The notes under the pieces were generated by a model, which was given only the letters and a program-made list of their open reading frames with translations, ran no database searches and was not told the origin of the DNA. Positions 10,429 to 62,886 of a DNA stretch of 64,000 nt are shown in pieces. The position numbers were made by a program, and so were the translations under genes. The stretch covers positions 1 to 64,000 of the forward strand of contig JACMLM010000071.1 of NCBI GenBank assembly GCA_014379595.1. The letters run 5' to 3'. Source of the stretch: Anaerolineales bacterium (GTDB lineage: Bacteria > Chloroflexota > Anaerolineae > Anaerolineales > Villigracilaceae). The number at the start of each line of letters is the position of its first letter. Positions within the stretch are counted from its first letter, which is position 1.

Positions 10429-11505
10429 ATGCTCGATAAATTGCAAGCAATTGAAGAACGGTTTGAACAACTAGGCAGCGAAATGCTCGAAGTAGGCAGC
10501 GACTATCAACGCGCCGCAGAGATCAACAAGGAACGCGTGGACCTGGAACCACTTATAGCAAAGGCACGTGAATATCGTCAGGCAATGAAAAGCCTTGATG
10601 AAGCCAGATCAATGATCATCAATGAAAATGATGCGGAATTGATCGCGATGGCAAAGGCTGATGTGGATGATCTTAGTCCAAAGATCGAGGTCCTCGAAAA
10701 AGAAATCCGAGGCATGCTCATTCCTAAAGACCCGCGCGATGATAGGAATGTCATCTTTGAAATTCGCGCAGGTGCAGGCGGTGACGAAGCCGCCATTTTC
10801 GCCGCAGATCTGTTCCGCATGTATACACGTTATGTGGAAGGCAAACGCTGGAAGCCGGAGATGATGTCTGAGAGCGCGATTGGTATTGGCGGTTTTAAAG
10901 AAGTGATCTTTGAAGTCAAAGGCAAAGGCGCATACTCAAAACTGAAATATGAATCGGGTGTGCATCGTGTGCAACGCGTGCCAGCTACTGAGTCACAAGG
11001 CCGTATTCATACATCCACCGCAACAGTTACCGTGCTCGCAGAAGTGGACGATGTGGAAGTTGATATTCCCGAATCTGATCTTGTGATCGAAGTCTATCGT
11101 TCCTCTGGCGCAGGCGGACAAAACGTGCAGAAGAACTCAACAGCCGTGCGCTTGTATCACAAACCAACAGGCATGATCGTGACTTGTCAGGATGAACGCT
11201 CACAGTTACAAAATAAATTACGTGCCTTGAGTATTCTGCGTGCGCGTTTATATGAAATTGAAGAACAAAAACGCCGTGCAGAGCTTGAAGCAGATCGCCG
11301 TTCGCAAGTGGGTTCGGGTGATCGTTCAGAAAAGATTCGCACCTATAATTATCCGCAAAATCGTGTCACAGATCATCGGATAGGATATTCAAGTTACAAC
11401 CTGCCCGCCGTGATGGATGGGTCAATTGACCAGTTCATTGATGAACTCTCCACACGCGATGAATCAGAAAGACTTGCATCAACAGGCGTGGATGACGACG
11501 AGTAA
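10429..11505 (+). CDS. prfA: Peptide chain release factor 1
   Basis: 358 residues, full length. RF1 reads UAA and UAG and triggers peptide release on the ribosome. The PAT codon-recognition motif is at 185-187 (RVPATESQG), which separates RF1 from RF2, and the catalytic GGQ is at 229-231 (SSGAGGQNVQ). The start ATG has GAGGAAA upstream. An intrinsic terminator follows directly. prmC, the methylase that modifies the GGQ glutamine, is usually the next gene; here two transporter-related genes lie between them. Confidence 0.98.
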   Translation: MLDKLQAIEERFEQLGSEMLEVGSDYQRAAEINKERVDLEPLIAKAREYRQAMKSLDEARSMIINENDAELIAMAKADVDDLSPKIEVLEKEIRGMLIPKDPRDDRNVIFEIRAGAGGDEAAIFAADLFRMYTRYVEGKRWKPEMMSESAIGIGGFKEVIFEVKGKGAYSKLKYESGVHRVQRVPATESQGRIHTSTATVTVLAEVDDVEVDIPESDLVIEVYRSSGAGGQNVQKNSTAVRLYHKPTGMIVTCQDERSQLQNKLRALSILRARLYEIEEQKRRAELEADRRSQVGSGDRSEKIRTYNYPQNRVTDHRIGYSSYNLPAVMDGSIDQFIDELSTRDESERLASTGVDDDE

Positions 11506-11559: not shown

Positions 11560-13707
11560 ATGAAGCGCATCAAAACTCCTCTTCATATTCTTGCAATCCT
11601 ATTTGTCATCTTTACAGCATGGGCGTTACGTTCACGCGCATTGAATAATCTTTCAATAGACTTTGATGAAGATGATTATCTGCGTGCAGGTCAGGAATAC
11701 ACGCATCTCATTCAGACTTCAAATTGGTCTGGCTTTCTGGAAACAAATTATCGCCCCGAACATCCTCCGCTGGCGAAGATCATTATTGGCATAAGCCTTT
11801 TATCTGTGCCAGAAAAACCACTAACCCCCGAGGCAGCCACATCAGCCGGTCCAAACAATTATCTCCCGCGTGACCTTGTACATTCGGCACGCACGGTCAA
11901 TGCCATTTTCGGAACGATAACCGTTGCCATCGTGGCATTGATCAATCCGCTGGCTGGGCTGTTCTTAGCTGCACACACTTTTACGATCAAATATGTTTCG
12001 CAGGTGATGTTGGAAGCTTTCCCAGCTTTGACCAGCTTATTAGTAGTATTGAGCTATCTGCAATGGAAAAAAGGGAAAAGGTCAAAGCTGAACGGCTGGT
12101 TGATTCTCTCTGCTGTTTTTCTTGGATTGACTGCTGCTTCAAAATATTTGTATTGTGTTGTCGGCATCGCAATTCTAATAGATTGGTATCTTGATGCCAA
12201 AGAACAAGATACCCTTAAAACTTCTTTGCGTACAATCATCCTTTGGGGCGTTCTGGCAATTATCGTCTTCTTTGCATTCAATCCATATATATGGACAAAT
12301 CCAATTTTGCGGATCGGAGAATCCATCTTTTATCATGCCGGCTATTCATCAGAAGCTGTAGAAGTTCAGAATGCAGCCTATCCAGTTTGGCAGCCGTTCT
12401 TCTGGTTATTCTTCTCGCCATATTGGTGGCATGAAGGTGTCTTTCCTTTTCCATTCGACGCGTTCATCACGATCCTGGCTTTGTTTGGACTAAAACGATT
12501 ATGGTCAAAAGAGCGACTCTATGTGCTCTGGCTTGGAATTGCAATCGCCTTTTTATTAGTCTGGCCTACAAAATGGCCGCAATACATCATTACGCTTACA
12601 GTGCCGCTCACAATTGCAGCGGCAGAGAGTATGTTTCTTTTAAGAGATAACATTTTTGAATGGTGGAAAAACCGTAAGACGCAAGATAAAGTTCATTACA
12701 GCAAAACAGAAACTCATCGAGTTCTCCCCTGGCTAATTCCTGGCCTGATCGCTTTCGCTGTTCTGACTTTGTTCCCACTCATATTCCAGTTCGCCGTTTC
12801 AATGACAGACTTCAATACTACTTCTATCCGCGATGGATTTAATGGCGGCATCTGGCGCGCCATCTCAGGCGGACTAACAGGTGAAATCCCTGTCACACCT
12901 GCCGATATCGGCACACGTTCTAATCAAGTTAATTTCGTTGGGTTGAGTTTGTATCCAGTAGTTTCCAATTTCATCGCATATCTGAATGGAGGAAGCGTCT
13001 TATTCTTCAACATCATGTGGACAGTGCTCTCCGTCCTGCTCCAATGCGGACTTGGATTGGCCGTCGCACTTCTGCTTTGGCAGCGCGGCGTGAGGCTCGG
13101 AAAATTCTGGCAAACTCTTTTCATTCTGCCTTGGGCGATTCCAGAAATGATCGGTGCAATGATGTGGGTTAACATCTTCCAACCAGATTGGGGCTGGCTA
13201 TATCTGGCAGTAGACAAGTTTGGACCAGACTCTCTCTTCGGCACCTTTACCAATGCATTGGATAAGAGTCCCAGCTTGTGGTTGGTTGGCTTTCTATTGC
13301 CCGCCATGTGGTATGGATTCCCATTCATGATGCTGGCATCCAGTATTGGATTGAAAACGATTCCGAAGGAAGTATTTGATGCCGCTTCAATTGATGGAGC
13401 AAGCATTTGGCAAACTTTTAAATATGTCACATGGCCTCTGCTTCTGCCATTGCTCATTCCTGCCATCATCGTGCGAGGCATCTTTGCTTTTAACCAATTC
13501 TATCTATTTCAAGCCTTTGGTTTCACCGATGCTACATTGGCAACTCTTTCCTATAATGTCTTCAATCCCACAAATGGATTTGGGCGTTATGGAGGTCAAT
13601 TCGCACTCTCAGCCGCGATCAATATTCTTACTATCGTCATTTTAATGATCTTCGTGATTCTTTTCAACCGCTGGAGCAAAGCAGGCGAAGGAGTCACTTA
13701 TGCATAA
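11560..13707 (+). CDS. GT-C glycosyltransferase fused to MalF-type ABC sugar permease
   Basis: 715 residues. The first part (about 1-370) is a multi-pass GT39/PMT-type glycosyltransferase: acidic motif DFDEDDY at 34-40 in the first outer loop, HPPLAK at 68-73, then many membrane helices. A short basic linker (about 370-388) leads into a complete binding-protein-dependent permease (about 389-715) of the MalF type, with the EAA loop EVFDAASIDGASIWQTF at 604-620. The first part would transfer a sugar from a polyprenyl phosphate; the second would import a carbohydrate. The start is ATG 11560, since the preceding frame lies in the prfA terminator. It overlaps the MalG-type gene by 8 bases. No binding protein or ATPase gene is in the window. 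The frame is continuous, so the fusion is not a stop-codon artefact. Confidence 0.8.
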   Translation: MKRIKTPLHILAILFVIFTAWALRSRALNNLSIDFDEDDYLRAGQEYTHLIQTSNWSGFLETNYRPEHPPLAKIIIGISLLSVPEKPLTPEAATSAGPNNYLPRDLVHSARTVNAIFGTITVAIVALINPLAGLFLAAHTFTIKYVSQVMLEAFPALTSLLVVLSYLQWKKGKRSKLNGWLILSAVFLGLTAASKYLYCVVGIAILIDWYLDAKEQDTLKTSLRTIILWGVLAIIVFFAFNPYIWTNPILRIGESIFYHAGYSSEAVEVQNAAYPVWQPFFWLFFSPYWWHEGVFPFPFDAFITILALFGLKRLWSKERLYVLWLGIAIAFLLVWPTKWPQYIITLTVPLTIAAAESMFLLRDNIFEWWKNRKTQDKVHYSKTETHRVLPWLIPGLIAFAVLTLFPLIFQFAVSMTDFNTTSIRDGFNGGIWRAISGGLTGEIPVTPADIGTRSNQVNFVGLSLYPVVSNFIAYLNGGSVLFFNIMWTVLSVLLQCGLGLAVALLLWQRGVRLGKFWQTLFILPWAIPEMIGAMMWVNIFQPDWGWLYLAVDKFGPDSLFGTFTNALDKSPSLWLVGFLLPAMWYGFPFMMLASSIGLKTIPKEVFDAASIDGASIWQTFKYVTWPLLLPLLIPAIIVRGIFAFNQFYLFQAFGFTDATLATLSYNVFNPTNGFGRYGGQFALSAAINILTIVILMIFVILFNRWSKAGEGVTYA

Positions 13708-14545
13708 AATATCCTTCCTGAGACAATTCGTCACACAAATCCTGCTTGCTATTGTTGGTTTCTTTGTCATATTGCCAATCTGGGGCATTATCCGACTTGC
13801 CTTCGATGGTTCTCTTAGAGGTCGACCAACCGAGTTCCGTCTTCTTCCAAAGATCTGGTCATTTGATGCCTTCTTGCAAGTACTTGATAAACCATATCAG
13901 TCTGTAGATTTTATAATATTGCTTAAGAACAGCTTATTAGTTTCTTTCGGTGCTGCATTAATTGCCATCGTACTTGGCATGAGCCTGGCCTACGCTTTTG
14001 CACGCTTCCGATTTCCAGGCCGCCAAATAGGACTAGTCGGATTACTGCTCACTGCTGTCATGCCGCCCGTTGCATTTATGACACCGCTTTATATTCTACT
14101 GAGTCTTATGCAAATTCGCACCACGCTTATGGCATTGGTCATCACATACGCCGCCTTCGCCATGCCGTTCTGTATCTGGAATATGCGTGCTGCATTTCAA
14201 GCGATCTCCAAAGAAATCGAAGAAGCCGCTTTTCTCGATGGCGCAGACGATTTGAAAACTTTTATCTATATCACATTGCCACTGGCACTACCCTCCATTG
14301 CGGTCGCAGGGCTGATCGCTTTCTTAATGGCTTATTCCGAATTCACCCTCGGCTGGCTGTTCGTTGAAAAGGGAGACAATCTCACTCTTGCCATGGCCAT
14401 CTATGCCATTGTTCAATCAGGAAATGCACAACCCTGGAGCTACTTAGGCTCACTCGCGCTCATTATGTCTATTCCCGTTGTTGTTATCTTTATCATCTTT
14501 CAGCGGACTTTGCTTGAACGGTTAATGTTCGGAGACGCCCAATGA
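13700..14545 (+). CDS. MalG-type ABC carbohydrate permease
   Basis: 281 residues with six membrane helices. The EAA loop EIEEAAFLDGADDLKTF contacts the transporter ATPase, which must be encoded elsewhere. It is the natural partner of the permease half of the preceding fusion, whose end it overlaps by 8 bases. Its own stop overlaps the prmC start by 4 bases (ATGA), so transporter and translation genes share one transcript. The substrate is not predictable beyond a sugar or sugar-like solute. Confidence 0.9.
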   Translation: MHKISFLRQFVTQILLAIVGFFVILPIWGIIRLAFDGSLRGRPTEFRLLPKIWSFDAFLQVLDKPYQSVDFIILLKNSLLVSFGAALIAIVLGMSLAYAFARFRFPGRQIGLVGLLLTAVMPPVAFMTPLYILLSLMQIRTTLMALVITYAAFAMPFCIWNMRAAFQAISKEIEEAAFLDGADDLKTFIYITLPLALPSIAVAGLIAFLMAYSEFTLGWLFVEKGDNLTLAMAIYAIVQSGNAQPWSYLGSLALIMSIPVVVIFIIFQRTLLERLMFGDAQ

Positions 14546-15444
14546 AAGCAGAAGAATTGCTTTCAAAATTAAAACCTAAATTTAAAGAAGATTCGACTGA
14601 ACGCGACGCGCAGATCATTCTCGCCCATATACTTGGACGTCCACGTACATGGCTGCTCGCCCACTTAGACACGCATCTTTCTCCGCCGCAAATTGCCGCA
14701 ACACAACAAGCATTCGACGAATACCAAAGAGGGACTCCCCTCCCATATATCATCGGCCATTGGGAATTCTTCAGCCTTGATTTCGACATTACAAAAGATG
14801 TCCTCATCCCGCGCCCTGAAACAGAATTGCTCGTAGAAAAAGCAATTGCATGGCTAAAGGCTTCGCCAGAACGCAGAACTATCGCAGACATTGGCACAGG
14901 CTCAGGAGCAATTGCAATTTCCATTGCTGTGAACATTCCAGATGCGCACATACTCGCAACTGATATCTCTCCCGCCGCACTTGAAGTAGCAAGAAGAAAT
15001 GCGAACAAACTTAACGTCCAAAAACAAATAGAGTTTATCGAATGTGATTTATTTCCGACTCAATCACAAATCGTAAATCAGGTCTCGATACGCCGCAAAG
15101 ACCAAGAACGCGACTACTCGACCACCGATGGCAAATCAAAAATTGATCTTATCTGTGCCAACCTACCCTACATACCTACTAAAACGTTACATCAACTCCC
15201 TATCTATGAGATTGAACCCACTCTCGCTCTCGATGGCGGCATAGATGGTCTTGATCTCTATCGCCGTCTGTTCAAACTTATACCTGACTTCATTGCACCA
15301 GATGGAATGATATTACTTGAAATCGAATCTACACTTGGCGCACAAACTCTCAGCCTCGCGCGAGATTCATTTCCGCAAGCAGCTATTCATTTGCATCAAG
15401 ATCTCACAGGCCGTGATCGTTTGCTTGAAATTATTTTTCAATGA
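14542..15444 (+). CDS. prmC: Release factor glutamine N5-methyltransferase with in-frame insertion
   Basis: 300 residues. It methylates the GGQ glutamine of release factors using S-adenosylmethionine. Seen are the N-terminal helical domain, LIPRPETE at 88-95, the SAM motif ADIGTGSGAIAI at 115-126 and the substrate motif NLPY at 207-210, where the family norm is NPPY. Between the GxGxG half and NLPY lie about 25 extra residues (about 175-199). They are encoded in part by 15081-15126, which matches a dispersed repeat also seen at 30740-30783. The insertion keeps the frame and falls in a loop, so the enzyme may still work. Overlaps both neighbours by 4 bases. Confidence 0.93.
   Translation: MKAEELLSKLKPKFKEDSTERDAQIILAHILGRPRTWLLAHLDTHLSPPQIAATQQAFDEYQRGTPLPYIIGHWEFFSLDFDITKDVLIPRPETELLVEKAIAWLKASPERRTIADIGTGSGAIAISIAVNIPDAHILATDISPAALEVARRNANKLNVQKQIEFIECDLFPTQSQIVNQVSIRRKDQERDYSTTDGKSKIDLICANLPYIPTKTLHQLPIYEIEPTLALDGGIDGLDLYRRLFKLIPDFIAPDGMILLEIESTLGAQTLSLARDSFPQAAIHLHQDLTGRDRLLEIIFQ
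15081..15126 (+). repeat. Dispersed repeat (family 2) inside prmC
   Basis: Begins GGTCTCGATA and ends ACTACTCGACCACC. The reverse complement of 30740-30783 has the same ends (GGTCTCGATA and ACTACTCCACCACC) and a similar length (46 against 44 bp). It is read through in frame by prmC. Confidence 0.7.
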
Positions 15445-18486: not shown

Positions 18487-19073
18487 ATTTTCTCCTGAGG
18501 ATTTAAGTTTATAAATTCACTAGCAATATCTTCATTTTCAAAAATCAACTTCAAGGATTTCTTTTGCTCGCCAAATCTAAAGGAAAGCCCGATCACATCT
18601 TCTGAATCATTGAATACACTAAAAATTGTCAGCGGGCGTTTTAAGAGAAGTTGACCATATACAGGCGCAAAAACAAATTTCAATACAAATTCTACCAGCG
18701 TCCCACCGATCAACCCTATAATCAAGCCAGCAGCCCCACCAAGTACAAATGGAAGTGAAAGAGTTTGGGATGAAGTTCCTGCAGGAGAAATTATGGACAC
18801 AATCACGAAAACCACAGCTCCGATCATAAAGCCAACAACAAAAAACGGAACGAGAGTCACTTTTGTAATGCTTCGTTCTTTTTTAGCGCAATCATTACAC
18901 AGCGGTACAACCACATCCATCATCACAGTACTCGAACGTTTTTGCACACCCATGTTCAGACCTATCTTCATCATCGTTTCCTGTTGCCTTCCGCAACGAA
19001 CACATCGCGCTGAAAATTTCAACTCAGGCGGATTCTTTTTATCTTTGATATTAATCAAAACTTCAGTAGTCAT
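18483..19073 (-). CDS. Zinc-ribbon, two-helix membrane protein, unknown function
   Basis: 196 residues. Near the N-terminus CVRCGRQQ and, about 35 residues later, CNDC form a four-cysteine zinc-ribbon pattern. Two membrane helices follow (VTLVPFFVVGFMIGAVVFVI and PFVLGGAAGLIIGLIGGTLV) and then a cytoplasmic tail of about 70 residues. I cannot name a family. It overlaps the selA stop by one base and the M24 start by 4 bases, so expression is tied to both. Confidence 0.75.
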   Translation of the reverse strand: MTTEVLINIKDKKNPPELKFSARCVRCGRQQETMMKIGLNMGVQKRSSTVMMDVVVPLCNDCAKKERSITKVTLVPFFVVGFMIGAVVFVIVSIISPAGTSSQTLSLPFVLGGAAGLIIGLIGGTLVEFVLKFVFAPVYGQLLLKRPLTIFSVFNDSEDVIGLSFRFGEQKKSLKLIFENEDIASEFINLNPQEKI

Positions 19074-20431
19074 TAGGTTTTTAGCGCATTTTTCAATCCA
19101 ACTAAAAGCGCACCTTCCTGTTCAGGCAATACAGTGCGCGGATCGAACAGGACTCTATCATTTTCGGTGCGCGCAATGATAGGCGGATTTTGATTGCGTA
19201 GTTTTTTCAAAAATTTATCAGGCGATTTAACTTCCAATGATAACAACCATGTTTTGATGGATTCACCTGGCAGGCTGCCACCACCCACCGTGGATTCACC
19301 TTCCACTACCTGACCTTGACCTAACTCTTCAATCCACGCTTCGGCTCGACCTTTGACCTGTTTCAACGTAAAAGACATCATACGCCAGATGGGAATTTCA
19401 CGCTCCGCGTTATCTTTGAGGTAATGTAAAAGTGTGGCGGTGAGTCCTGCAAGGCAGGTTTTATCCGCACGGACTGCGCGCGCAAGTGGATGCTTCCTTA
19501 TTTTATCGATCAGTTCTTTCTTTCCTACAATAATCCCTGCCTGTGGGCCGCCAAGTAATTTATCTCCCGAAAAGCAGACTACATCCACACCTGCAGAGAT
19601 TGACTCTTGAATGGTTGGTTCATGGATAAGACCGAATTTGGCTGTATCAAGAAATGTACCGGAGCCAAGATCGTCTACAACAAATATGCCTGCTTTGTGA
19701 GCAAGTTCGACAATATCTTTTAACTCTGGTTCTTCTGTAAACCCAATGACTTTAAAATTCGATGGATGCACACGCATAATAAGCGCAGCTGGATCTTCGG
19801 TAGCGGATTGGTAATCTGATAAGCGGACTTTGTTAGTTGTACCTACTTCCACAAGTTTTGCACCCGACTGCTTCATTACATCTGGAATGCGGAAACCGCC
19901 GCCGATCTCCACTAATTGCGAGCGCGAAATAATAACGCGCTTCTTATTTGCCAATGCAGATAAGACAAGCAAAACGGCCGAAGCATTGTTATTGACAATG
20001 ATCGCGGCCTCTGCGCCCGTAAGTTTTTGCAAAATGGATTCAGCATGAATAAGACGTGAGCCGCGTACGCCTTTTTCAAGATCATACTCAAGATTGGAAT
20101 ATCCGCGTGAGACTGCATCTATAGCGCGGATGGTATCTGCACTCAACGGAGCACGGCCCAGATTTGTATGTAGGATTACACCCGAAGCATTGATGACTGG
20201 GATGAGAGTCGGCTTTGTCCATGCGGATAATGCGGATTCTGTTTGGGCGAGAATTAAATCAATTGATGGCAGAGCAGGTTCAGGGTCCATTTTGAATCGG
20301 GCGCGGATTTCATCCAATGTTGAACGGATGGCATTCAACGTCAATGGCCTGCCGTTGCGGGCAATTAATTCCGCGGCAATTTGTGTTTGTAATATTTGTT
20401 CAACAGAGGGAAGGTTACGAAGAGTCGTCAT
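19073..20431 (-). CDS. selA: L-seryl-tRNA(Sec) selenium transferase
   Basis: 452 residues, full family length. It converts Ser-tRNA(Sec) to Sec-tRNA(Sec) with selenophosphate using pyridoxal phosphate. The typical N-terminus LPSVEQIL, the LHTNLGRAPLS motif and the PLP lysine Lys291 in CFSGDKLLGGPQAG are present. Its presence implies that the organism inserts selenocysteine, but no selB, selC or selD lies in this window. It overlaps the membrane-protein gene before it by 17 bases and the next by one. Confidence 0.95.
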   Translation of the reverse strand: MTTLRNLPSVEQILQTQIAAELIARNGRPLTLNAIRSTLDEIRARFKMDPEPALPSIDLILAQTESALSAWTKPTLIPVINASGVILHTNLGRAPLSADTIRAIDAVSRGYSNLEYDLEKGVRGSRLIHAESILQKLTGAEAAIIVNNNASAVLLVLSALANKKRVIISRSQLVEIGGGFRIPDVMKQSGAKLVEVGTTNKVRLSDYQSATEDPAALIMRVHPSNFKVIGFTEEPELKDIVELAHKAGIFVVDDLGSGTFLDTAKFGLIHEPTIQESISAGVDVVCFSGDKLLGGPQAGIIVGKKELIDKIRKHPLARAVRADKTCLAGLTATLLHYLKDNAEREIPIWRMMSFTLKQVKGRAEAWIEELGQGQVVEGESTVGGGSLPGESIKTWLLSLEVKSPDKFLKKLRNQNPPIIARTENDRVLFDPRTVLPEQEGALLVGLKNALKT

Positions 20432-30937: not shown

Positions 30938-32065
30938 TTAAATATCTAAACCTTGCTTCGTTTTCGATTTCCCTCTTGACCGCATCACATCCAACACACG
31001 TGGCATTACTTCGGTATATAACTTATACCAAAGTTTATTCGGCGCGAAATCATACGCGCCCAACGTGCGCAGGACTTCGCCGCCAAAACCTTCCTTGAAG
31101 CGATACACGCCCCACATCGAATCGCTTTCATCAAACACATCAGGCGCGCCCCACAGATCATATGTTTCGCATCCGTTGGACTTCGCACGCTTGATAGCTT
31201 CCCATTGCAAAAGATAAGTCGGCATCTTTTCGCGATAAAAATTGCGCGACATGCCATACACATAATATGCGTGCCCCGCGAATATGAATAAAAATATCGC
31301 AGCGATAGGTTCACCATCCACTTCAGCGATCAATGGTATAGCTGACGGTTGATTATCCGCTGCTGACTGCATAAACAATTTCCACACGGTCATGTAATAA
31401 TCTTCATTGCGAATCACAAATCCATCACGCACAGACGTTTCGGCGTACATCCTATATAACATCGGCAATTCACCCAGAGTGCCTACGCGCACCGTAACGC
31501 CCTTCTTCTCTGCAAGACGAACGTTATAACGCGTCTTCGGTTTCATGCTTGCCAACAACTCTTCTTCGGATAAACTCAGCTCAATGACCACTGTATTTTG
31601 AAATTGGATTTGATCTGAAGAATCGACCCACCCTCTTCGAGTCAATTCGGACCTGATAGCCTGCCCCACATCATCAGGCACATCTTCTACGCTGTGAGGG
31701 ACTCCACTTCCCAACACCACATCAGGATCTAGTTTCAAAAATATTGCACCTTGTTTTTTAGCAAAAGATTGCAAGTCATTCAGCACACGATTTCGTAATG
31801 CTTCATCGTTCCAATCTAACAGCGGACCCTTCGGCGCATAAAGAATGGATAACCGCGCGGCGAATCCCTTACTGAGAATTTGTTTCTTCAATATCATCGC
31901 CGCGGCAACGATTTCATTTTGCGAATCTTTCCAAACAAATGGCAAGCCACTCCATCCATTCTTTGCTTTGACCTGTGACCACTCCCAGGTTTGCAAAAAA
32001 TGCGGCTCAGGCAATTGAGAGATGATCTCATTCCATTCTTTAGGAACACCAGTAAATGCTTGCAT
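30938..32065 (-). CDS. FemAB-type aminoacyltransferase
   Basis: 375 residues with two GNAT folds: the first begins FLQTWEWSQVKAKNGWSG; the second carries SMKPKTRYNVRLAEKKGVTV and ends CETYDLWGAPD followed by YRFKEGFGGE. FemAB proteins add amino acids from aminoacyl-tRNA to the peptidoglycan stem peptide; related proteins occur in exopolysaccharide clusters with uncertain acceptors. Three bases separate it from a paralogue upstream, and both close a surface-polysaccharide operon. A cell-wall cross-bridge role would also supply acceptors for the sortase domain encoded at 49-50 kb, but that is inference. Confidence 0.85.
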   Translation of the reverse strand: MQAFTGVPKEWNEIISQLPEPHFLQTWEWSQVKAKNGWSGLPFVWKDSQNEIVAAAMILKKQILSKGFAARLSILYAPKGPLLDWNDEALRNRVLNDLQSFAKKQGAIFLKLDPDVVLGSGVPHSVEDVPDDVGQAIRSELTRRGWVDSSDQIQFQNTVVIELSLSEEELLASMKPKTRYNVRLAEKKGVTVRVGTLGELPMLYRMYAETSVRDGFVIRNEDYYMTVWKLFMQSAADNQPSAIPLIAEVDGEPIAAIFLFIFAGHAYYVYGMSRNFYREKMPTYLLQWEAIKRAKSNGCETYDLWGAPDVFDESDSMWGVYRFKEGFGGEVLRTLGAYDFAPNKLWYKLYTEVMPRVLDVMRSRGKSKTKQGLDI

Positions 32066-32068
32066 TAT

Positions 32069-33076
32069 TTAAGAAACCTCACGTCCCGCCATGCGCCAGA
32101 GATAAAGTTTATACAACAATGGCATATATATTTTATCCATAGCCTGTGCTGCTCGCTTAACTTCGCCGCCGAATCCACGTTTGAAGCGATAGACTCCCCA
32201 CAAGCCATCGTGATGTGTTTCAAAGTTTGCTTCAAGAGTTTCTTCATTTTCATCGGGTACACCCCACAGATCATATTCTTCACATCCACGTGCCTTCGCC
32301 CAGCGGATAGCTTCCCATTGCAATAGATAGGTTGGCATGCGGTTACGTTCTTCATCATTAGACGCGCCATACACATACCAGGCACGCGTTCCTTTTGCGA
32401 AGACCATCAACGCAGCAAGAGGTTTACCTTCATATTCCGCAACTAACAATTCACATGTCCCTTTTGGATGGAATAATTCATAAGCGCGTTGATAATATTC
32501 TTTTGAATGCACGCCGAAATTATCGCGCCCACCTGTTACAGTCATCATTTCATGGAAGGCAGAGATATCGTCCCATACGCGGACGGTCACACCTTTTTTT
32601 TCAGCGAGTCGAATGTTGTAACGACATTTTGGTTTCATTCTTGCTAATATTTGTTCTTCATCTTCTTTGATGGAAATTACGATGGTGCGGGGAGGTTGGA
32701 TATTATGTGGTGAAACCGACCATTGACAGTTGACCGTTGACGATGCTTGTTCTTCCCATGTATCTGGTTCGACTTTCAAAAAAACTGCGCGATTTTGTTT
32801 GCAAATAAAATCAACTTCACCCCAAAACTGATCACTGTTCACTGATAACTGTTCTCTGTTCTCACTAAACACTGCCTTTGGCATATAGCCGAGAGTCAAA
32901 CCTAAAGGTAGGCGGCGGAAGAGGATTTGAGCGCCAGTTTCATTGTCAAGAATGAGACGGACGGGTTTCCATCCAAATGATGATTTTAATTCACCCCACT
33001 CGCCCATCTGAAGTAAATGTGCATTGGGATGAGATTCTAGAAAACGATTCCAATAAGTGAGATTAACTTCGGGCAT
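32069..33076 (-). CDS. FemAB-type aminoacyltransferase, tandem paralogue
   Basis: 335 residues, clearly related to the next gene: LLQMGEWGELKSSFGWKP, ARMKPKCRYNIRLAEKKGVTV and CEEYDLWGVPDENEE match its equivalents. It is about 40 residues shorter. Two FemAB proteins in tandem typically add successive residues of one bridge, as FemA and FemB do in staphylococci. Only 3 bases separate it from the dehydratase gene before it and from the paralogue after it. Confidence 0.85.
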   Translation of the reverse strand: MPEVNLTYWNRFLESHPNAHLLQMGEWGELKSSFGWKPVRLILDNETGAQILFRRLPLGLTLGYMPKAVFSENREQLSVNSDQFWGEVDFICKQNRAVFLKVEPDTWEEQASSTVNCQWSVSPHNIQPPRTIVISIKEDEEQILARMKPKCRYNIRLAEKKGVTVRVWDDISAFHEMMTVTGGRDNFGVHSKEYYQRAYELFHPKGTCELLVAEYEGKPLAALMVFAKGTRAWYVYGASNDEERNRMPTYLLQWEAIRWAKARGCEEYDLWGVPDENEETLEANFETHHDGLWGVYRFKRGFGGEVKRAAQAMDKIYMPLLYKLYLWRMAGREVS

Positions 33077-49351: not shown

Positions 49352-52300
49352 CTAGCGTCCGTTTCTATTAATATTGTCGAGTGTATCTTTCTGGGTGTTC
49401 AAGAGAACGGCACGCACCGCGATACGACTGGCATATGTATTTGTCGCTTCGTTATATGTCTTACATGTGATCAAGGTCAGCCAGGAATCATCCTCGTGCT
49501 TAAGAACCGAAGTATTGTACGGACTAACTGTACGATTTTCACGCACCTCATAAGTATAGAGAGATCCATAAGCATGAACAAGAATCTTGTCACCCCACTT
49601 GAGCTTGCCAAGCCCAATGAATGGACCGGGTGTTCCATCAGCTAAATAGACATGCCCAGTAAGAGCGCTGTTGCCTTCCCAGCCCGGGAATGCTGTTCCA
49701 TTTAACCATCCAGCTTGATCCACCAGCCAGGACACATCCCAATCATCATCCACTAAAGGTACACCGACAATCGGCATATTCACTCCAAGACTTGGAATTT
49801 CCAACCAAACATCTGTAGCTGCATACATCTTGTCTGCCGGCTGGGCTGGAAGTGTCGTGATCACATCCGGCGCAAAACCAGTAAATGGCAGGAGATCAGG
49901 CAAGTTCGCATTACCGTTTGGTGGGATGGGAGGATTAATCGTGACACTGGCTAAAACCTGATAAATATTGACAGGGTCACCCGGGTCATAAGCACGCTCT
50001 GTGGACGTGACATTATGAACAGACATCTGAACGGGCACAGGAGGAGCGCCTGCAGGATCAATAGGCAAAGAGGTCCAGGCTACTGATGCTGTATTCACCA
50101 AAGTTGGTTGGGTACCATTGAAAGTGGCAAAGAATGTAATAGTAGCTGTCTGGCCAACCGGGAAAACATCCCATACAAATACAAGCTCGTTACCACCGGG
50201 CAAAGCACATGGGTCAGGCGGTGTAGTTGGCGCAAGGCCAGCATATGTTATAGGTGTACACGCATTGTAAGTTAAGCCAGCTGGTAATATGTCAGTAACT
50301 ACTACATCAAAAGCATCTATGCTAGTGAGCGTGGTGTGATCAATAAATAATGTAAATTGGATAGGTGTACCAACTGTCACTACTGTTGGCGTCGCTGATT
50401 TATCAATATCTAAATCAGGTTCAACAATCGTTACGTTTGGTGCACTCGTTGTGAATGAACCACCTGTCCAAGCCCAAGTAACACTATTGTTTAATGTGTC
50501 CCCATCTTGATTCTCAATCACATCAAGAACGATCGCATTATATTGAATCACCAAAGTGGAGCCTGCTGGTTGCGCAGGAATATTCCCAACATTGAACACG
50601 ATCTGACGACCTGGATTTGCTGGGTTGGCTGGTGAGTCGCCGGGGTCTGTAACTGATGAGACAGTGGGCGGACAAACTGCGGGCATAATATTTACCCCAG
50701 CCAAGGTAGCGGAGACACAATCTACAAAAGCCAGACCCTTATCCATTCGATCTGTGATGGTTACATTGTTAAGTGCTATGCCAGCAGGCAGGTTTATTCT
50801 GACTTCATAGGTCACCCATTCACCGATTGCCATATCATTACCAGAAGTGAATGCCTGATCAGTACCAACGATGGTCTTGGTGAGTCCATTCGATGAAACA
50901 AAACCAAAATCTACAGTTGGATTCGCAGTTGTACCGTTACCATTGTTAACCGTATTATTTGCTGCAGCACCAACATTTCCCGGCGTGAGTGTCACTGCAT
51001 TGCTAGATGTTTGACCAAGACCTGTTCCAACACCATTATCGTTATTATTTGTATTCGTATTTGGACCTGCCGTATCAGCCGCATCGGCTGTATCTATAGC
51101 ACTGGCAAATCCAACGGGCGGGGTCACTCTTACAATGTAGTCGCCTTGCGGCAATCCACTAAACTGATAAGTAGCAGCTGCACCTGTTACTACTCCCCCC
51201 GCCGCATCGTCGGTGGTTCCAAGGATTCCATCTGGTCCAACATTGATCTCTGTTGTGCCATTGCCAGCAAATAGCTGCACAGTTGCACCGGCAAGAGCTG
51301 TGTCGCCTGCATCATACGTTCCATTATTATTTACATCTACAAAAATCTGGTTACTCAACACATTACGATAGAAACCAAAGTCAACTGTCATGTTGGCGCG
51401 ATCATCTATTGTGCCTTGACCGGTTGCAGACAAATCTGTTTCTCCTGTCGGCTCTGTTACTCCAGGTCCAAGAGTGACCGCGGCAGATGCTACATAATTC
51501 ACTGCTGTTCCAGTGATCGTTGAACGGCCATTATCGTCACTGTCTGTATCATTATCGGGGTCATTTGCAGTACTGTCAGCTATTACTCCCGCACCACTGA
51601 TCGTCGTCTGGCTGCTCCAATATCCAGCAAGCGGATCGCTGGCGACATTGTCACCAGCTCCGATATTACGGAAGTTATCTTGAGGAATCAACACTACATA
51701 TTCGCCAGCTGCCAAGCTGTCGAAGCGATAATATCCACTTGCATCTGTCGTGGCAAACCCAAGGAAAGTATCTGTTGCGTCGTACACGCCGGGGGTGCCG
51801 CCATTATCCTGATACAGCTCAACTCGCACAGCTGGAATCCCAACTTCAGTTCCATTGATCGTTGCGCTGTTATCTGTGTCGTACCATACATGGTTGCCGA
51901 GGCTGTAATTCAAACCTATAAAGCCAAAGTCAACACTCGGGTTGGCAGTGGAACCTGTCAGGTTATCTACTGTATTGGATGTTTGTGCCAGGCCGGGGGT
52001 AAGAGTGACGGCGTTCGATGAAATCACACCAGTACCCGTTCCCAAACCATTGTCATTGTCGTCTGTATTGTTGGTTGGGTTAGTTGTATCAACCGCCGCA
52101 AATGTATCTACGGTGCTAGTTGTACCAGCAGGTGCAGTAGCGCGCACAATGTAATTACCTTGTACAAGGCCGGGGAAGTTATAAAGACCGCCGCCTGCAG
52201 TTGTGGTAGAACCAAGTAGAAGTGCGCCGTTGCCAGACCAAAGCTCAACAGTCACGTTGTCGATGCCTACTTCGGCGCCATTGAATGATCCGTTTTGATC

Positions 52301-55300
52301 AGCATCATTCCAGACCAGATTCCCAAGGCTCATGGTATAGAAACCAAAGTCCACGGTCATATTAGCACGTCCATCAGGTTGATTGCCCTGACCAATCGCC
52401 GCCTCAAGATCGGCTTCACCTGTAGGTTCAGTATTTCCGCTAGGGCCAAGTGTTACCACTGAGGAAATCACTGCGTTGTTCAAAAGTCCGGCAGTTTGCA
52501 GCATACCGTTATCGTCTGAATCGGTGTCGCTATTGGATGCTGCTGCCGCTGCTTCAAATAGCGCGCCAGCAGCCGTGCGGCTCGTGCCAGAGGACCAGTA
52601 ACCTGCTAGTGTTTCACCTGCACCAAACTCAGTGGCGGCAATTGATACAACATAGTCACCGGGATAGAGATCATCGAAGAGATAGTAGCCACCGTTAGAG
52701 GTCGTATCCGTCGCCAAGATGACAGCCAAATTACTGGCTGAATATAAATTAACGGTGACGCCATTAATGCCAACTTCCGCACCGTTGATCGTACTGCTGT
52801 TATCTGTATCGAACCAAACGCGATTACCTAATGAATATTTTTGTGTAAAGCCGAAGTCAGCTGTGAAGTTGACATTGGCATCGGCAAGAGACCCAGTGTA
52901 ATTCGATTGTCCTTCACCCACTATTTCGGTGCCCGGCGTCAGAGTGTAATTGGTGCTGCGGATTCCATTTGTAGCAGGAGCGGCATCATCAATACCATTC
53001 TCGTCCGCATTCTCGTCGGACGTTTCATTCGCCCCATTGCCAACTGATGAGTAATAGGATTCAAGTGGATCACCGGCCTGAAACTGACTGGCCGGGATTA
53101 AGACATAGTATGTACCGGGATAGAGTTGATCGAATTGGTAGTAGCCAGTTGCATCGGTAGTTGTATTGGTAACGAAAGTACCCGTTGATGTATACAACTC
53201 CAGCGTGACATTCGCAACGCCACTTTCCGTGCCGTCTAGAATGCCATTATTGGAAATGCCGCCACCAGCTCCATCATCAAACCAAACACGGTTACCAATG
53301 GCAACCTGACCAATGAAACCGAAGTCGACAGTGGGGTTGCGGGTTGTGCCTGTTGCTTGAGTGACAATGTTGTTATTCAATGCACCAAGCGAGCCAGGAG
53401 TCATTGTAGTAGTTCCCGAAGAAACTGCTCCAGTGTTGAGACCGATACCGTTATCGTTATTATCAGCATTCGTATCTGGAGATGCATTATCGGCAGCATT
53501 AAAGGTATCAATCGTGCTGGCGGTTCCTGTACCAGAAGTTGTTCTAACAATATATTGGCCTTGCGGTAAACCAGCAAAGAGATAGTTACCGGTGCCGTTG
53601 GTGAGCATGCCACCTGCAGCGTCATCAGCAGTGCCAAGAATACCATCCGAGCCAACATTGATCTCAGTCGTTCCGTTAGCAGCATACAACCTGACTGTCC
53701 TACCAGCAATAGGAGTATCTGGAGCACCATCATAATTGCCGTTACTGTTATTATCCAGATATACCAAGTTGCCGATCTCGACGCGATAGAAGCCGAAGTC
53801 GACTGTCATGTTCGCTTGTCCGTCAGGTTGTCCCTGCCCACCGCTTAGGTCTGTTTCGCCAATTGGTTCAGATGTGATCGTAGGTCCAAGTGCTACAACA
53901 GATGAAAGCACTCTTCCAGTCGTGAGTGTGCCATTGTCGTCAGAGTCAATATCAGTATCAGCAAGCGCGGCTGTTCCCTCGCTGATCACACCAGTACCAT
54001 TGATCGTAGTGCCTGATGACCAATAACTTACAAGAGCGCCAGCACCAGTAAAGTTACTGGTTGGAAGGCTCACAATATAGCTACCTGCAGGAAGGTTGTT
54101 GAAGCGATAATATCCACCACCTGCCGTTAACATACCGCCAGGAGCATCGTCGGCAGTATTAAGAATGCCGTCCGGGCCAACATTGATCTCTGTAACGCCA
54201 TCAGATGCAAAGAGTTGAACCCTCACTCCATTTACACCAACTTCGGCACCATTGATAGCACTATTGTTATCCGTGTCGAACCAGACACGGTTGCCAAGCG
54301 AGAAGACTGGGATGAAACCAAAGTCAATCGTAAGATTGCTGTTGTCATCAGTTTCTTCCCAACGCCCGCGTGATAGTGGCCCATCCCAACCTGTAGCGTT
54401 AAAGGCCATGTTGGCAGGTGATCCAGGATCGGCTTGCCCGCTGAGTTCTGTTTCCCCTGTTGGTTCATTGTCATGTACTAAAGTAATTGTGCTGCTAAGA
54501 ATGCCAGTTGTTGCCGGTGTGCCAACGTTGATACCATTATCATCGCGGTCTGTATTCGGTGTATTTGGATTCCCAGCAACGCCAACATTTTCTGTACCTG
54601 TAGGAATACTGCTATTAAAACCTACTAAGGGGCCAACTGCGATAAAGTTGCTAGCGGGGATCAGAACCACATAAGAACCTTCTGCTAGGTTATCAAATAG
54701 ATAATATCCGCCAGCATCGGTAACATCAAAACCGATCGACGCACCGTCAGGAACGCCATCAGTATTTGCATCGCGGTAAAGCTCAACGCGAACATTGGCA
54801 ATTGGAAGCTCGCCAGCATCCATAATGCCATTGTTATAGGTTCCGCCACCATTTCCATCATCCAGAAAGACGCGGTTGCCGAGACTCATTGGAATGAAGA
54901 AGCCAAAGTCAATTGTGAGGTCACTATTATTATCGGCTTCGCCAAAGCGCCCGCGTGAAAGTGGGCCGTCACCAGCTGTCGGATTAAAACCTGGCGCCAC
55001 GCTCGTATCTGTGCTGATAGTTCCAGCAGCATCGTCATTTGTTGGCGCACCAACAGTGGCCGCTGTCAAATTGATACGAGTTGAGATAATGCCATGTGGC
55101 GAAGCTACAGGATCAGCGCGTAACAACCGGTCGACGCCGTTATCAAGTTGATTCGTATTATTAGTAGCATTGTCTACACTGCCAGTGCTGCTGTTGTACC
55201 CATCTAATAAGCCGCCTGATGCGAAATTGGTGCGATCAACGCCGACAATATAATTATTGACTGGCAAGTTATCGAAGAGATAGTAGCCGTTGGCATCAGT

Positions 55301-58300
55301 CAGATCATATGCGATCCAATCGTCGCTACGGTCACCAATGATACCCAAGTCATCTGGTTGGTTATCTGTATTAGCATCAAGATACAAACTAACTCTTACG
55401 CCGGTGGGAACAGGAGGTTCACCAACATCGAGCACCCCATCATTATCGGTATCGATCCACAAACGATTGCCCAAACTGCGCGGCGGACGCACAAAGCCAA
55501 AATCGATTGTCAGGTTGCTATCGCCATCTTGCTGTCCATAATTGCCAACATTTTGTGGACCATATGTACCACTGTTGTTAATATCGGTTTCATTTGCAGT
55601 GGTGAGTGGTTCGCCATTGTAGGACATCGCAATTTGTGAACTGGTGATACCGGTTGTAGCCGGCGTGCCGCTATCGATGCCGTTATCGTCGGTATCCTCA
55701 AAATCATCGGCTGGGGCTGTAGTTTGGTTCGCATCTGTGCTGCTGATGAAGTTTTGTAATGGCTGGCCTGCTGTAAAGTTTGAAGCAGGGATATGTACAT
55801 AATAGTTTGTACCCGGCTGCAGGCGGTCGAATAGATAATAGCCGGTTGCATCGGTTGTGGTGAATCCCATCAAGGTATCGGATATGACTTGTAAGCCCGG
55901 TGTCCCGTTCGTATCACGCCAGAGTTCTACACGAACACCGTTAACGCCCACTTCGGTACCATCTTGCAAGCCATTGTTGTAGCCTGCGCGAAAAGGTGTT
56001 GTGCCAGCACCTTCGTCGATCCATACTCGGTTGCCCAAACTCATAGGTGGAATGAAACCAAAGTCAATCGTTAGGTTACTAGTAGCATCGGTCTCGCCAA
56101 AGCGCCCACGCGATAGAGGGCCATCCCAACCAGTGGGGTTATAGCCCTGGTTGGCGGGAGAACCCGGATCGGCCTCGCCGCTCAGATAGGTTTCGCCGGT
56201 TGATTCAGGGACTCCACGCGTGAGCACAACCACAGTGCTAAAAACGCCGTTTGTCTCAGGGAAATTGGTATTGATCCCATTATCATCGTTATCAATATCT
56301 GCTGTTGCTGTGCCGCCATTAACACCGGTGGTCTCTGTGCCGGTTGGCTGGCTGCTGTACCATCCAGCGAGTGGTTGCCCAGTGGCAAAATTGCTGGCCG
56401 CAATTTCTACAAAATAAGGTCCAGGGTCGAGATTATCGAATAAGTAAAAACCGTTGACATCAGTGATGTCGGTACGAATCATTTCAGCCGCTTCCGGTAT
56501 ACCGTTGGCATTGCCGTCACGATACAAACGAACAGTAGCCCCAGCGACCTGCGGTTCCGTTACCTGACGAATCCCATCATTGCGCTCAGTGTAATTAAAG
56601 ACACCCGGAGAAGTCTGCCCATTGTCTTTCCAGACATGGTTGCCAATACTGAATGGAATATCTGTCCCGCCAAAGAAACCAAAATCAATGGTAAGGTCGC
56701 TATTCGTGTCACGTTCTCCATTGACCCCGCGCCTTTGCCCGGCCAAGCCATCGCGATCATTTGCCGAAAGGTCAAATTCCGCTGCGGGTTCGACAGTTGG
56801 TTGCAATTCGAAGCTTGCACTAAAGACTTCCAACCCTGGAGTTATGGGGTCTCTTCCGTTATCGTTATTATCACCGTTGGTTGACGGCGGATTTGTATAT
56901 GTGGCAACCGCAGGAGTGCCCGTACTACTTCGCAAACTTTCAAGCGATTGTCCAACACCAAAATTAGCAGCAGGAATTCCAATAATATAGCGGTTGTTGT
57001 TCATCACTGCTGAATCATAGGGGATATTACTAAACAAGTAATAACCACCACTATCAGTAGTAGTTGTACTGATTGCGGCACCATCGGTAATACCATCGTT
57101 ATTGACATCTCGATAAAGATTGACCGTCACCCCTGCAATGCCTGGTGTGGTGTCGTCCGGTGCATTGATCGTGCCATTATTATCCGCATCACGCCAAACA
57201 CGATTGCCCACGCTCATCCGTTCAGGAACTGTGATACCAACTTTGCGCGGTTCGGAGGCAAGCAAATCCTGCACAGTAATACCAACACCTGGGTCTGAGT
57301 CATAGGAACCAACATGCGAGAATGAGTTCCATGCAATTTCATGCGAAAGGGCATCGTTGGGATCAAAACCGGCCGGGAGGGCATCCAGCGGAATATACAT
57401 GGGCACGCCAAAACGCACCTCAGACGAGGTAGATGCAGGTTGAATGAACGAGCCTGCATTCAAGCGAATGCGATAGGAAAGAGCATCAGCTGACCACGTT
57501 GTCGTCCATGTATCATTACAACTTCCCGGTATAGTATCACCTATAGGCTGGTTAAATACTTCAGGCCGACAGGGGTTAGTCGTATTGTTATATTCAATTG
57601 TAAAGCTTGCACTGGTTAATCCAGTCCCACTGATAAACTGCACAGGGCCACGCATCACCGGACGAAATTCCGACTGACGTGGTGATCCAGCAAGCGTGCC
57701 ACCGGAACCTGTATCACCCACATAAGGTAATATGTCGTAGAGCACGTAACTCAACATGGGCACATTTCCATCGTTGAAGATACGCACGTTGTATTCGAAA
57801 TCGTCCATTGTGGTACTAGCGGGTGGAGGCACAAGCTGCCCCGGGCTTAATGCACCTTCAGGGTAAGCCTGTGAAATACACGGAAAACGTGTAAATGGAT
57901 TGGTTCCGCCCCCGGGTACACCGACAATGCCTCCGTTGGGGCATGTAGCATCGGGCAGGAACGTAGTTGCATCAACAACCTGGATATTGGCAGCATCTGT
58001 GCTTCGAATCCATTTTTCACCGCGCAATGCAGCTGAACGTTCTACTATATATGAATCAGGAATCTGACATGCCGGGTCAGTGGCATCGCCATCACTATCT
58101 GCGTCGCCATTTGCATTATCCTGCACGGTCGTGCCGTTTTCGCATATGGCATCCACTGAATCAGTAACTGTATGCAAATTATTGATATATGAACCAGGGG
58201 CCTGGCCGCGCGGTACACGAGCAAAGAATTCAACGGTTAAGAAGTGGCTTCCTAGTGCAAGTGGGTTAACCGTAAGTGCCGGGCTGGGGGCATTCCAAGC

Positions 58301-60202: not shown

Positions 60203-60240
60203 TATGTACTCCAGTGAGTATGGCTGATAAAAAAAGACAA

Positions 60241-60284
60241 AATAAAAAAACAGCAAACCTAACGATTTGTTATTGGTTTCGCTG
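60241..60284 (-). terminator. Leader terminator of the giant surface-protein gene
   Basis: On the minus strand CAGCGAAACC (complement of 60275-60284) pairs, with one bulge, with GGTTTGCTG (complement of 60251-60259), followed by TTTTTTT. It lies 40-80 bases upstream of ATG 60202. No minus-strand gene lies upstream in the remaining 3.7 kb, so its likely role is attenuation in the leader. Confidence 0.6.
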
Positions 60285-60499: not shown

Positions 60500-60605
60500 G
60501 TCCGGGCAGGCCCGGCGCGGCGAAGCCTTTCGAAACCCGCCAGGATCGAAAGATAGCAACGGTAAGGAAGAGTCTTCGGGTGCCGCCGGTAGCCTGCCCG
60601 GGCAT
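60500..60605 (+). ncRNA. ffs: Small bacterial signal recognition particle RNA (4.5S)
   Basis: About 105 nt. The ends CCGGGCAGGC (60502-60511) and GCCTGCCCGG (60592-60601) pair perfectly. The apical part holds the Ffh-binding signature CCAGG...AGCAACGGTAAGG around a GAAA tetraloop (CCAGGATCGAAAGATAGCAA), and GGGTGCCGCCGG completes the hairpin. With Ffh and FtsY it targets membrane proteins to the translocon. It is preceded by a near-consensus promoter and is short, without an Alu domain. An overlapping ORF from 60580 is rejected for this reason. Confidence 0.88.
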
Positions 60606-62621: not shown

Positions 62622-62852
62622 AACGGATGATAGGGAAGAGACTTGGTTTTGTCAGCAGTTGAACTGCTGACAAACATACAAGCGCCGAAGGTGCAAATCT
62701 GGCAACAGGCGAAACCAGATGAAACTATCAGGCAAAAGGACCCTGTATCTGCATTAACTCTGGAAAGTCTCAATTCATAATGAGACACCGACGGTGTAAG
62801 TCTGTTTCATCTATTAGTGATGAACTGATAATCTCTCAGGTTCCATTACAGA
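62622..62852 (+). promoter_or_regulatory. Tandem glycine riboswitch
   Basis: Two aptamers. The first (about 62625-62743) has AGCGCCGAAGGTGCAAATCT and ATCAGGCAAAAGGACC; the second (about 62755-62852) has ACTCTGGAAAGTCT, CACCGACGGTGTAAGTCTG and ATCTCTCAGGTTCCATTACA. These are the conserved cores of glycine aptamers. It stands before gcvH and, by family knowledge, turns glycine cleavage on when glycine is high. The terminator at 62851-62886 is the expression platform. Confidence 0.93.
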
Positions 62853-62886
62853 GGACGCAAGGTTATATAACCTTGCGTCCTCTTTT
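62851..62886 (+). terminator. Riboswitch terminator (expression platform)
   Basis: GAGGACGCAAGGTTA pairs with its complement (62868-62882) and is followed by TTTT. The 5' arm starts right at the end of aptamer 2, so ligand binding can compete with it. Confidence 0.85.

Follow-up and report, generated by a model that had tools for sequence, protein, structure and literature searches.

A GT39-like glycosyltransferase fused to a MalF-type ABC permease and its association with alpha-glucan uptake genes in Chloroflexota

Sequence comparison and structure modelling identify in an Anaerolineales bacterium a conserved single polypeptide that combines a complete GT39/PMT-type GT-C glycosyltransferase (GT) with a MalF-type ABC permease and that is co-encoded with a MalG partner, here called MalG2. 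The gene was found in a stretch of 64,000 nucleotides (contig JACMLM010000071.1, assembly GCA_014379595.1), which we refer to as the window. Both component families were already known, and it is the combination of a GT39-like with a MalF-type protein that is a new architecture; no published account of such a fusion was found among the matches listed in open-licence PMC. The genes around the fusion and its relatives place it in a putative uptake system for alpha-glucans (starch sugars) that further comprises MalK, a binding protein, the permeases MalF1/MalG1, a lipoprotein amylase and a second amylase. We regard the architecture, together with membership in the alpha-glucan uptake system, as almost certain.

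The reading frame is open, without internal stop, from either of two possible starts through position 13707 (Table 1), in agreement with the preliminary description of a single frame running from a GT-C domain of the PMT/GT39 type into a MalF-type permease. The upstream start, GTG 11515, would give a protein of 730 residues, and alignment with homologues favors ATG 11560. The fusion and MalG2 are inserted between a prfA-like and a prmC-like gene. Because the starts of MalG2 and of the prmC-like gene overlap the stops of the genes preceding them, the fusion, MalG2 and the prmC-like gene appear to be translationally coupled. A model of the whole chain built from 46 sequences had a pLDDT of 90 and a pTM of 0.86, the latter value suggesting a defined packing of the GT and permease halves. 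Foldseek searches with this model returned two sets of relatives on one chain, MalF/SugA permeases and Pmt4/ArnT glycosyltransferases.

Table 1. Positions of the fusion gene, its parts and adjoining genes in the window, and of the extra free GT genes in other loci
Feature	Position	Strand	Remarks
prfA-like gene, directly upstream of the fusion	10429..11505	+	name by eye; host slot
GT39-like glycosyltransferase/MalF-type ABC permease fusion	11560..13707	+	715 aa
GT half, residues 1-376	11560..12687	+	GT-C fold, ~10 membrane helices by reading of the model
DFDEDDY motif of first extracytoplasmic loop, residues 34-40	11659..11679	+	
EHPPLAK motif, residues 67-73 (HPPLAK 68-73)	11758..11778	+	matches HPPFAK of yeast Pmt4 in alignment
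Invariant Arg111	11890..11892	+	aligned with the Arg preceding the GTLTV stretch of Pmt4
Linker, residues 361-388	12640..12723	+	short, Lys/Arg-rich, cytoplasmic by inference
MalF-type permease half, residues 388-715	12721..13704	+	BPD_transp_1 at residues 498-703
EAA loop region, residues 602-631	13363..13452	+	ATPase-coupling site; loop intact
MalG-type partner permease (MalG2)	13700..14545	+	281 aa; start overlaps fusion stop by 8 bases
prmC/hemK-like gene, directly downstream of MalG2	14542..15444	+	name by eye; start overlaps MalG2 stop by 4 bases
Extra free GT genes	L078:7969-9072, L079:218-1312, L085:8787-9923, L091:8814-9986, L094:6704-7876		

The GT half was also modelled alone (376 residues), with a pLDDT of 95. 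Residues 2-369 of this model matched Chaetomium Pmt4 (9i5l) with a Z score of 27.5 over 342 aligned residues at an rmsd of 3.6, and further matches were yeast Pmt2 (Z 27.3), yeast Pmt4 (Z 26.3) and ArnT (5f15, Z 25.4). In the structural ranking PMTs thus stood above ArnT and OST, and the model portrays the GT half as a complete GT-C membrane glycosyltransferase that is closest to the GT39 protein O-mannosyltransferases. At the sequence level the relationship is more distant. A single-sequence Pfam search with the GT half from the window gave no family at E 0.01, and the whole frame scored 20.7 bits against PMT_2, below the cut-off of 26.1. A profile of the GT half matched yeast Pmt4 at E 1.8e-5, via the HPPxAK motif and the helices following it. 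Among 31 aligned GT members PMT_2 was detected in eight and PMT in five at E 0.01 or better, and a distant fusion (L258) passed the cut-offs for both halves with 32.8 bits for PMT_2 (cut-off 26.1) and 69.4 bits for BPD_transp_1 (cut-off 26.4). By sequence the GT half is a divergent GT39/PMT member. The genome from which the window derives has 29 other PMT_2 matches besides the fusion.

Both GT motifs that had been read from the sequence at the outset, DFDEDDY and HPPLAK, are present and conserved. Residues D34, D36, E37, D38, D39 and Y40 are invariant in all 46 aligned fusions, and D34, D36, E37 and Y40 also in all 31 GT halves, which include eight free GT genes. The same holds for E67, H68, P69, K73 and R111 (46/46 fusions and 31/31 GT halves), with slight variation at positions 70-72 of the EHPPLAK motif. 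D36-E37 are the likely catalytic pair, by equivalence to the Asp-Glu of PMTs.

The permease half scored 58.3 bits against BPD_transp_1 (cut-off 26.4), matched MalF among PDB sequences at an E value of ca. 5e-18 and resembled MalF/SugA in structure. Its score against the MalF equivalog PRK10999 (NCBIfam) was 73.6 bits, under the cut-off of 392, which makes it MalF-like and not MalF itself. The EAA loop region contains a D612-G613-A614 stretch that is invariant in 46/46 fusions. The initial assignment of a MalF-type permease with its EAA loop, followed by the MalG partner as the next gene, is borne out. MalG2 of the window and the MalG proteins of other fusion loci form one clade (100/100). A mapping onto the sugar site of E. 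coli MalF was dropped and no inference is drawn from it, since the operon's own MalF1 is divergent there as well. Synthesis of a separate permease by internal initiation is ruled out in the window, where the linker is devoid of in-frame ATG, GTG and TTG codons. Among 64 fusion linkers, 44 lack ATG and 19 lack all three codons; the linkers of other members often contain start codons, from which an internal permease start may occur.

Related fusions are widespread. A search with the whole fusion in 101 genomes (its own and relatives) at a threshold of E 1e-30 gave matches in 38, of which 30, including its own, were near full length in one frame. The other eight matches were truncated at contig ends (G003, G010, G013), spread over two frames (G017), located at a contig edge (G067) or partial and directed to other proteins (G069, G072, G097). 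Loci were additionally collected with the GT half using one genome per species. The best 80 of at least 94 confirmed loci were taken, and all 80 belong to Chloroflexota by title. A GT ORF was called in 76 of these 80 loci, the exceptions being L122, L136, L139 and L141, and in 66 it was fused to a permease, with a shortened half in some cases (e.g. L132, L146, L148). Relatives with 37-77% identity to the window protein occur in many assemblies. The recurrence in other Anaerolineae about which the preliminary description had asked is therefore wide and extends to records titled Chloroflexaceae (L147), Chloroflexia and Oscillochloris (L148, shorter frame), while fusion L258 in genome G731 also lies outside the class of the window. 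Class-wide, the GT was matched in 86 of 396 genomes at E 1e-5 or better, with many of the weaker hits probably representing other GT39 proteins, and in a sample of the phylum 29 of 400 genomes had a match at E 1e-20.

No genuine split into separate GT and permease genes emerged from the candidates inspected. Two of them (L092, L138) look like broken frames, three (L113, L130, L133) are broken, partial or at contig edges, and five (L134, L137, L142, L143, L144) are GT genes without permease. A MalF2-type permease ORF without GT was seen only in L056, at a contig edge where a GT tail remains, and in the broken frame of L138, against 91 ORFs with GT in the same scan (some genomes counted twice), and most of these loci were collected by the GT half, a procedure by which free MalF2 is more easily missed. 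No free MalF2 appeared in the 101 genomes searched with the whole fusion either. Purifying selection on both halves is indicated by three close pairs, which gave dN/dS values of 0.10-0.11 (GT half) and 0.06-0.12 (permease half). Two additional pairs were close to saturation.

Related GT genes without permease fusion were found in family f82 (same phylum, another class) and in genomes G072, G362, G366, G375 and G488. A propeller of the two-component-regulator type (Reg_prop) follows the GT part in five of six unfused proteins scanned (L245, L251, L254, L257 and L057, not L058). Except for L257 and L058, the unfused genes are part of MalF-MalG operons that also encode a binding protein, amylases or GH57; in L245, L251, L254 and L057, which come from other families of the phylum, a maltose-type ABC operon thus includes a GT39-like protein joined to a propeller. 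Since the MalG proteins of the unfused-GT operons form their own clade (100/99), apart from the MalG2 clade, these operons appear to be a second form of GT-MalF/MalG association and not simply an ancestor, and the idea that they are direct orthologues of MalF2/MalG2 is unsupported. Five fusion loci have an extra free GT gene directly upstream of the fusion (Table 1), and these genes form one clade (100/100). Their motif is DSDE, DNDE or DADE in the four that were aligned (L094 left out), and the arrangement recalls the hetero-dimers of eukaryotic PMTs. In L137, L142, L143 and L144 a free GT of the same GT family ends an apparent pentose-phosphate operon, which was read by eye for L144 and has equal gene lengths in the other three. 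The L144 record is titled Thermoflexus, yet its GT groups closely with those of L137, L142 and L143, so the record name may be wrong.

The gene neighborhood was surveyed within 6 kb of 64 fused ORFs (the window and 63 loci). Alpha-glucan genes (amylase, binding protein, MalF1/MalG1 or GH57) were present near 31 of them, and 25 lie beside prfA or prmC as in the window. None lies beside both. Neither context was found for eight, six of which have less than 3 kb of flank on one side. The order of the full operon is MalK, ROK regulator, binding protein, MalF1, MalG1, lipoprotein amylase, fusion, MalG2 and second amylase. The genome of the window carries MalK, the binding protein (SBP), MalF1, MalG1 and two directly adjacent amylases on another contig (C35), without a fusion. 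The MalK protein of C35 contains ABC_tran and OB_MalK domains and its binding protein an SBP_bac_8 domain; we infer that these two proteins pair with the fusion. The preliminary description had noted that no binding protein and no ATPase are present. That is correct at the locus, because the module of GT-MalF2 and MalG2 sits apart from the C35 operon, and does not apply to the system, whose partner operon is located on another contig or, in many relatives, around the fusion. A recruitment of the transporter for glycan assembly, which had also been suggested, finds no support, the neighbors being alpha-glucan degradation genes.

On a tree of the 64 fusions the context label changes seven times, and at least six of the changes are forced by starred branches (quick method). 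The two-gene module therefore seems to have moved repeatedly between the same two places. Across L069-L148 and the window this amounts to at least six switches of GT-MalF2 and MalG2 between the alpha-glucan operon and the prfA-prmC slot. Recombination with relatives is one idea for the reuse of this slot. In L044, L085, L088 and L117, prfA is separated from the fusion, or from its GT copy, by a gene of 314-319 codons that was considered as a lipid-sugar synthase and was rejected, as by eye it reads as an agmatinase/arginase relative and not as GT2.

The binding protein accompanies the fusion in most genomes. Orthologues were assigned at a threshold of E 1e-60 and counted by hand over the 101 genomes, uncorrected for kinship. 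They were found in 38 genomes, namely in 31 of 35 with the fusion vs 7 of 66 others, and four of these seven show only 41-50% identity. In G004 and G011 its apparent absence falls at contig ends, and G014 is only 71% complete, so that among the fusion genomes only the loss in G027 looks real. In this genome (99% complete) the ROK-SBP-MalF1-MalG1-amylase1 segment is absent from the place of the operon on a 625-kb contig, and no SBP match was obtained at E 1e-60. MalK persists in G027 alongside the second amylase, and the fusion and MalG2 are retained at prfA, a pattern that would be expected if the fused permease relies on MalK. Three genomes (G015, G033, G052) contain the whole operon without any match to the fusion.

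Elsewhere the window contains a gene for a 3634-residue repeat protein (49352-60256, minus strand) with a C-terminal sortase domain (PF04203, 90.6 bits, cut-off 26.6), which makes it a giant surface protein that carries its own sortase. Two adjoining FemAB-like genes (30938-33076, minus strand; one recognized by PF02388, the other by eye) are next to apparent polysaccharide genes. A SelA gene (PF03841, 449 bits) is located at 19073-20431 on the minus strand, and ARAGORN found no tRNA of any kind in the window, hence no tRNA-Sec. A bacterial small SRP RNA (60504-60602, 70 bits) and a glycine riboswitch aptamer (62750-62861, 45.8 bits) are on the plus strand.

A permease half must pair with a MalG and an ATPase. 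GT-MalF2 and MalG2 would assemble with the MalK of the alpha-glucan operon into an ABC importer, and we consider such a MalK-powered importer probable. GT-C enzymes work on the outer face of the membrane with polyprenyl-phosphate sugars, as established for PMT and ArnT. The active site of the GT half would thus face outward, next to the dock of the substrate-binding lipoprotein, and would take a sugar off its polyprenyl-phosphate carrier and attach it to an acceptor at the outer face. The likeliest acceptor would be another protein of the alpha-glucan system, secreted or lipid-anchored, either the binding protein or an amylase. On this analysis the fusion may be a transporter-tethered O-glycosyltransferase with a protein acceptor in the uptake system, a tentative proposal that is nevertheless the best single guess because of two precedents. 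The closest one for a PMT-like enzyme that accompanies secreted proteins of glucan degradation is the GT39 gene Cbes_1864 in the glucan degradation locus of Caldicellulosiruptor bescii, upon whose deletion protein glycosylation was no longer detected (PMC6151902). The other is that many glycolipoproteins of S. coelicolor are ABC substrate-binding proteins (PMC6593405).

Several results count against a protein acceptor in the alpha-glucan system. A longer glycosylation linker on the binding protein of fusion genomes was not seen in five sequences read by eye: the Ser/Thr/Pro linker is short in G008 and long in the window's genome, which have the fusion, and short in G033 and G052 and long in G015, which do not. 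The protein-acceptor reading is weakened because the length of this linker shows no relation to the fusion in these five and because the operon also exists without the fusion. Furthermore, 25 of the 64 fusions are at prfA/prmC and G027 keeps the fusion without the binding protein. Lipids and polysaccharides are also substrates of GT-C folds, and the window protein itself stays below the PMT_2 cut-off.

The repeated departure of the module from the operon and its location at prfA/prmC in 25 of 64 cases would also fit a general surface glycosylation enzyme, for which fusion only fixes stoichiometry, membrane location or regulation without functional coupling, and PMT-type enzymes often have multiple targets (PMC6593405). 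We consider this rather unlikely, because the module stays fused and accompanies the alpha-glucan binding protein (31/35 genomes), and because the 29 other PMT_2 proteins could cover general work. Chemical coupling, in which the GT half moves sugar between a lipid carrier and an oligosaccharide entering or leaving the permease, would make transport dependent on lipid-linked sugar. This coupling of lipid-carrier sugar transfer to sugar passage, proposed at the outset, is possible; the retained covalent link and the scarcity of free MalF2 in both searches speak for it. We nevertheless judge it unlikely, since the active site of a GT-C enzyme and the pore of an ABC transporter are distinct cavities and the unfused GT-propeller proteins in similar operons indicate that the GT need not join the channel. 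Moreover, PMT/GT39 relatives of known activity take protein acceptors, as PMC6151902 illustrates, and a protein acceptor is favored over the coupling because of this precedent. No description of a sugar uptake mode tied to a lipid carrier was found among the matches listed in open-licence PMC. A variant in which a GT at the importer mouth uses lipid-linked sugar to modify the binding protein or the incoming oligosaccharide during the transport cycle seems still less likely.

Dead-enzyme scaffolds exist, and the weak Pfam PMT scores of the window half could be taken to mean that the GT half has lost catalysis and serves as a membrane scaffold in place of the extra N-terminal helices of MalF. 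The invariance of D34, D36, E37, E67, H68, P69, K73 and R111, the dN/dS of ca. 0.1 and the score of relative L258 above the PMT_2 cut-off make this improbable. A frameshift, chimera or misassembly joining two genes can be dismissed, as fusions recur in 66 of the best 80 loci from many separate assemblies, so that relatives do not carry separate genes only, the linker is clean, selection extends across both halves and the broken frames of L092 and L138 show the reverse.

Compared with known systems, the entire GT half shares the GT-C fold and the D-x-D-E and HPPxxK motifs with GT39 PMTs (eukaryotic Pmt1/2/4, bacterial Pmt, Cbes_1864). It differs from them in having only 376 residues, in lacking the MIR domain that is a feature of eukaryotic PMTs, and in running into an ABC permease. 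ArnT (GT83), which acts on lipid A, and other GT-C enzymes using polyprenyl-phosphate sugars have the same fold, but ArnT scored ca. 2 Z units below the best PMT and was absent from the PDB sequence matches of the GT half. With MalFGK2 and SugABC (CUT1) the system has in common a MalF-like half with EAA loop, a MalG partner, and MalK and a binding protein in the genome, whereas here the first permease subunit bears a whole glycosyltransferase. Known ABC permease fusions (permease-binding protein, permease-ATPase) likewise link a permease to a partner domain. They join parts of the transporter itself, while the partner in the GT-permease fusion is an enzyme of another pathway. Like the fusion, Cbes_1864 is located near glucan-degradation genes (PMC6151902).

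The architecture is a reason against labelling these proteins plainly as ABC transporter permease. It also offers a testable protein, with the question whether an importer glycosylates the binding protein or amylase that belongs to it. ABC importers and glycosyltransferases that use lipid-linked sugars are regarded as distinct machines. Their covalent union, found widely in one phylum, with the permease half fused wherever it was seen intact and with a tie to the uptake of starch sugars, suggests a physical link between sugar import and glycosylation of the cell surface in these bacteria.
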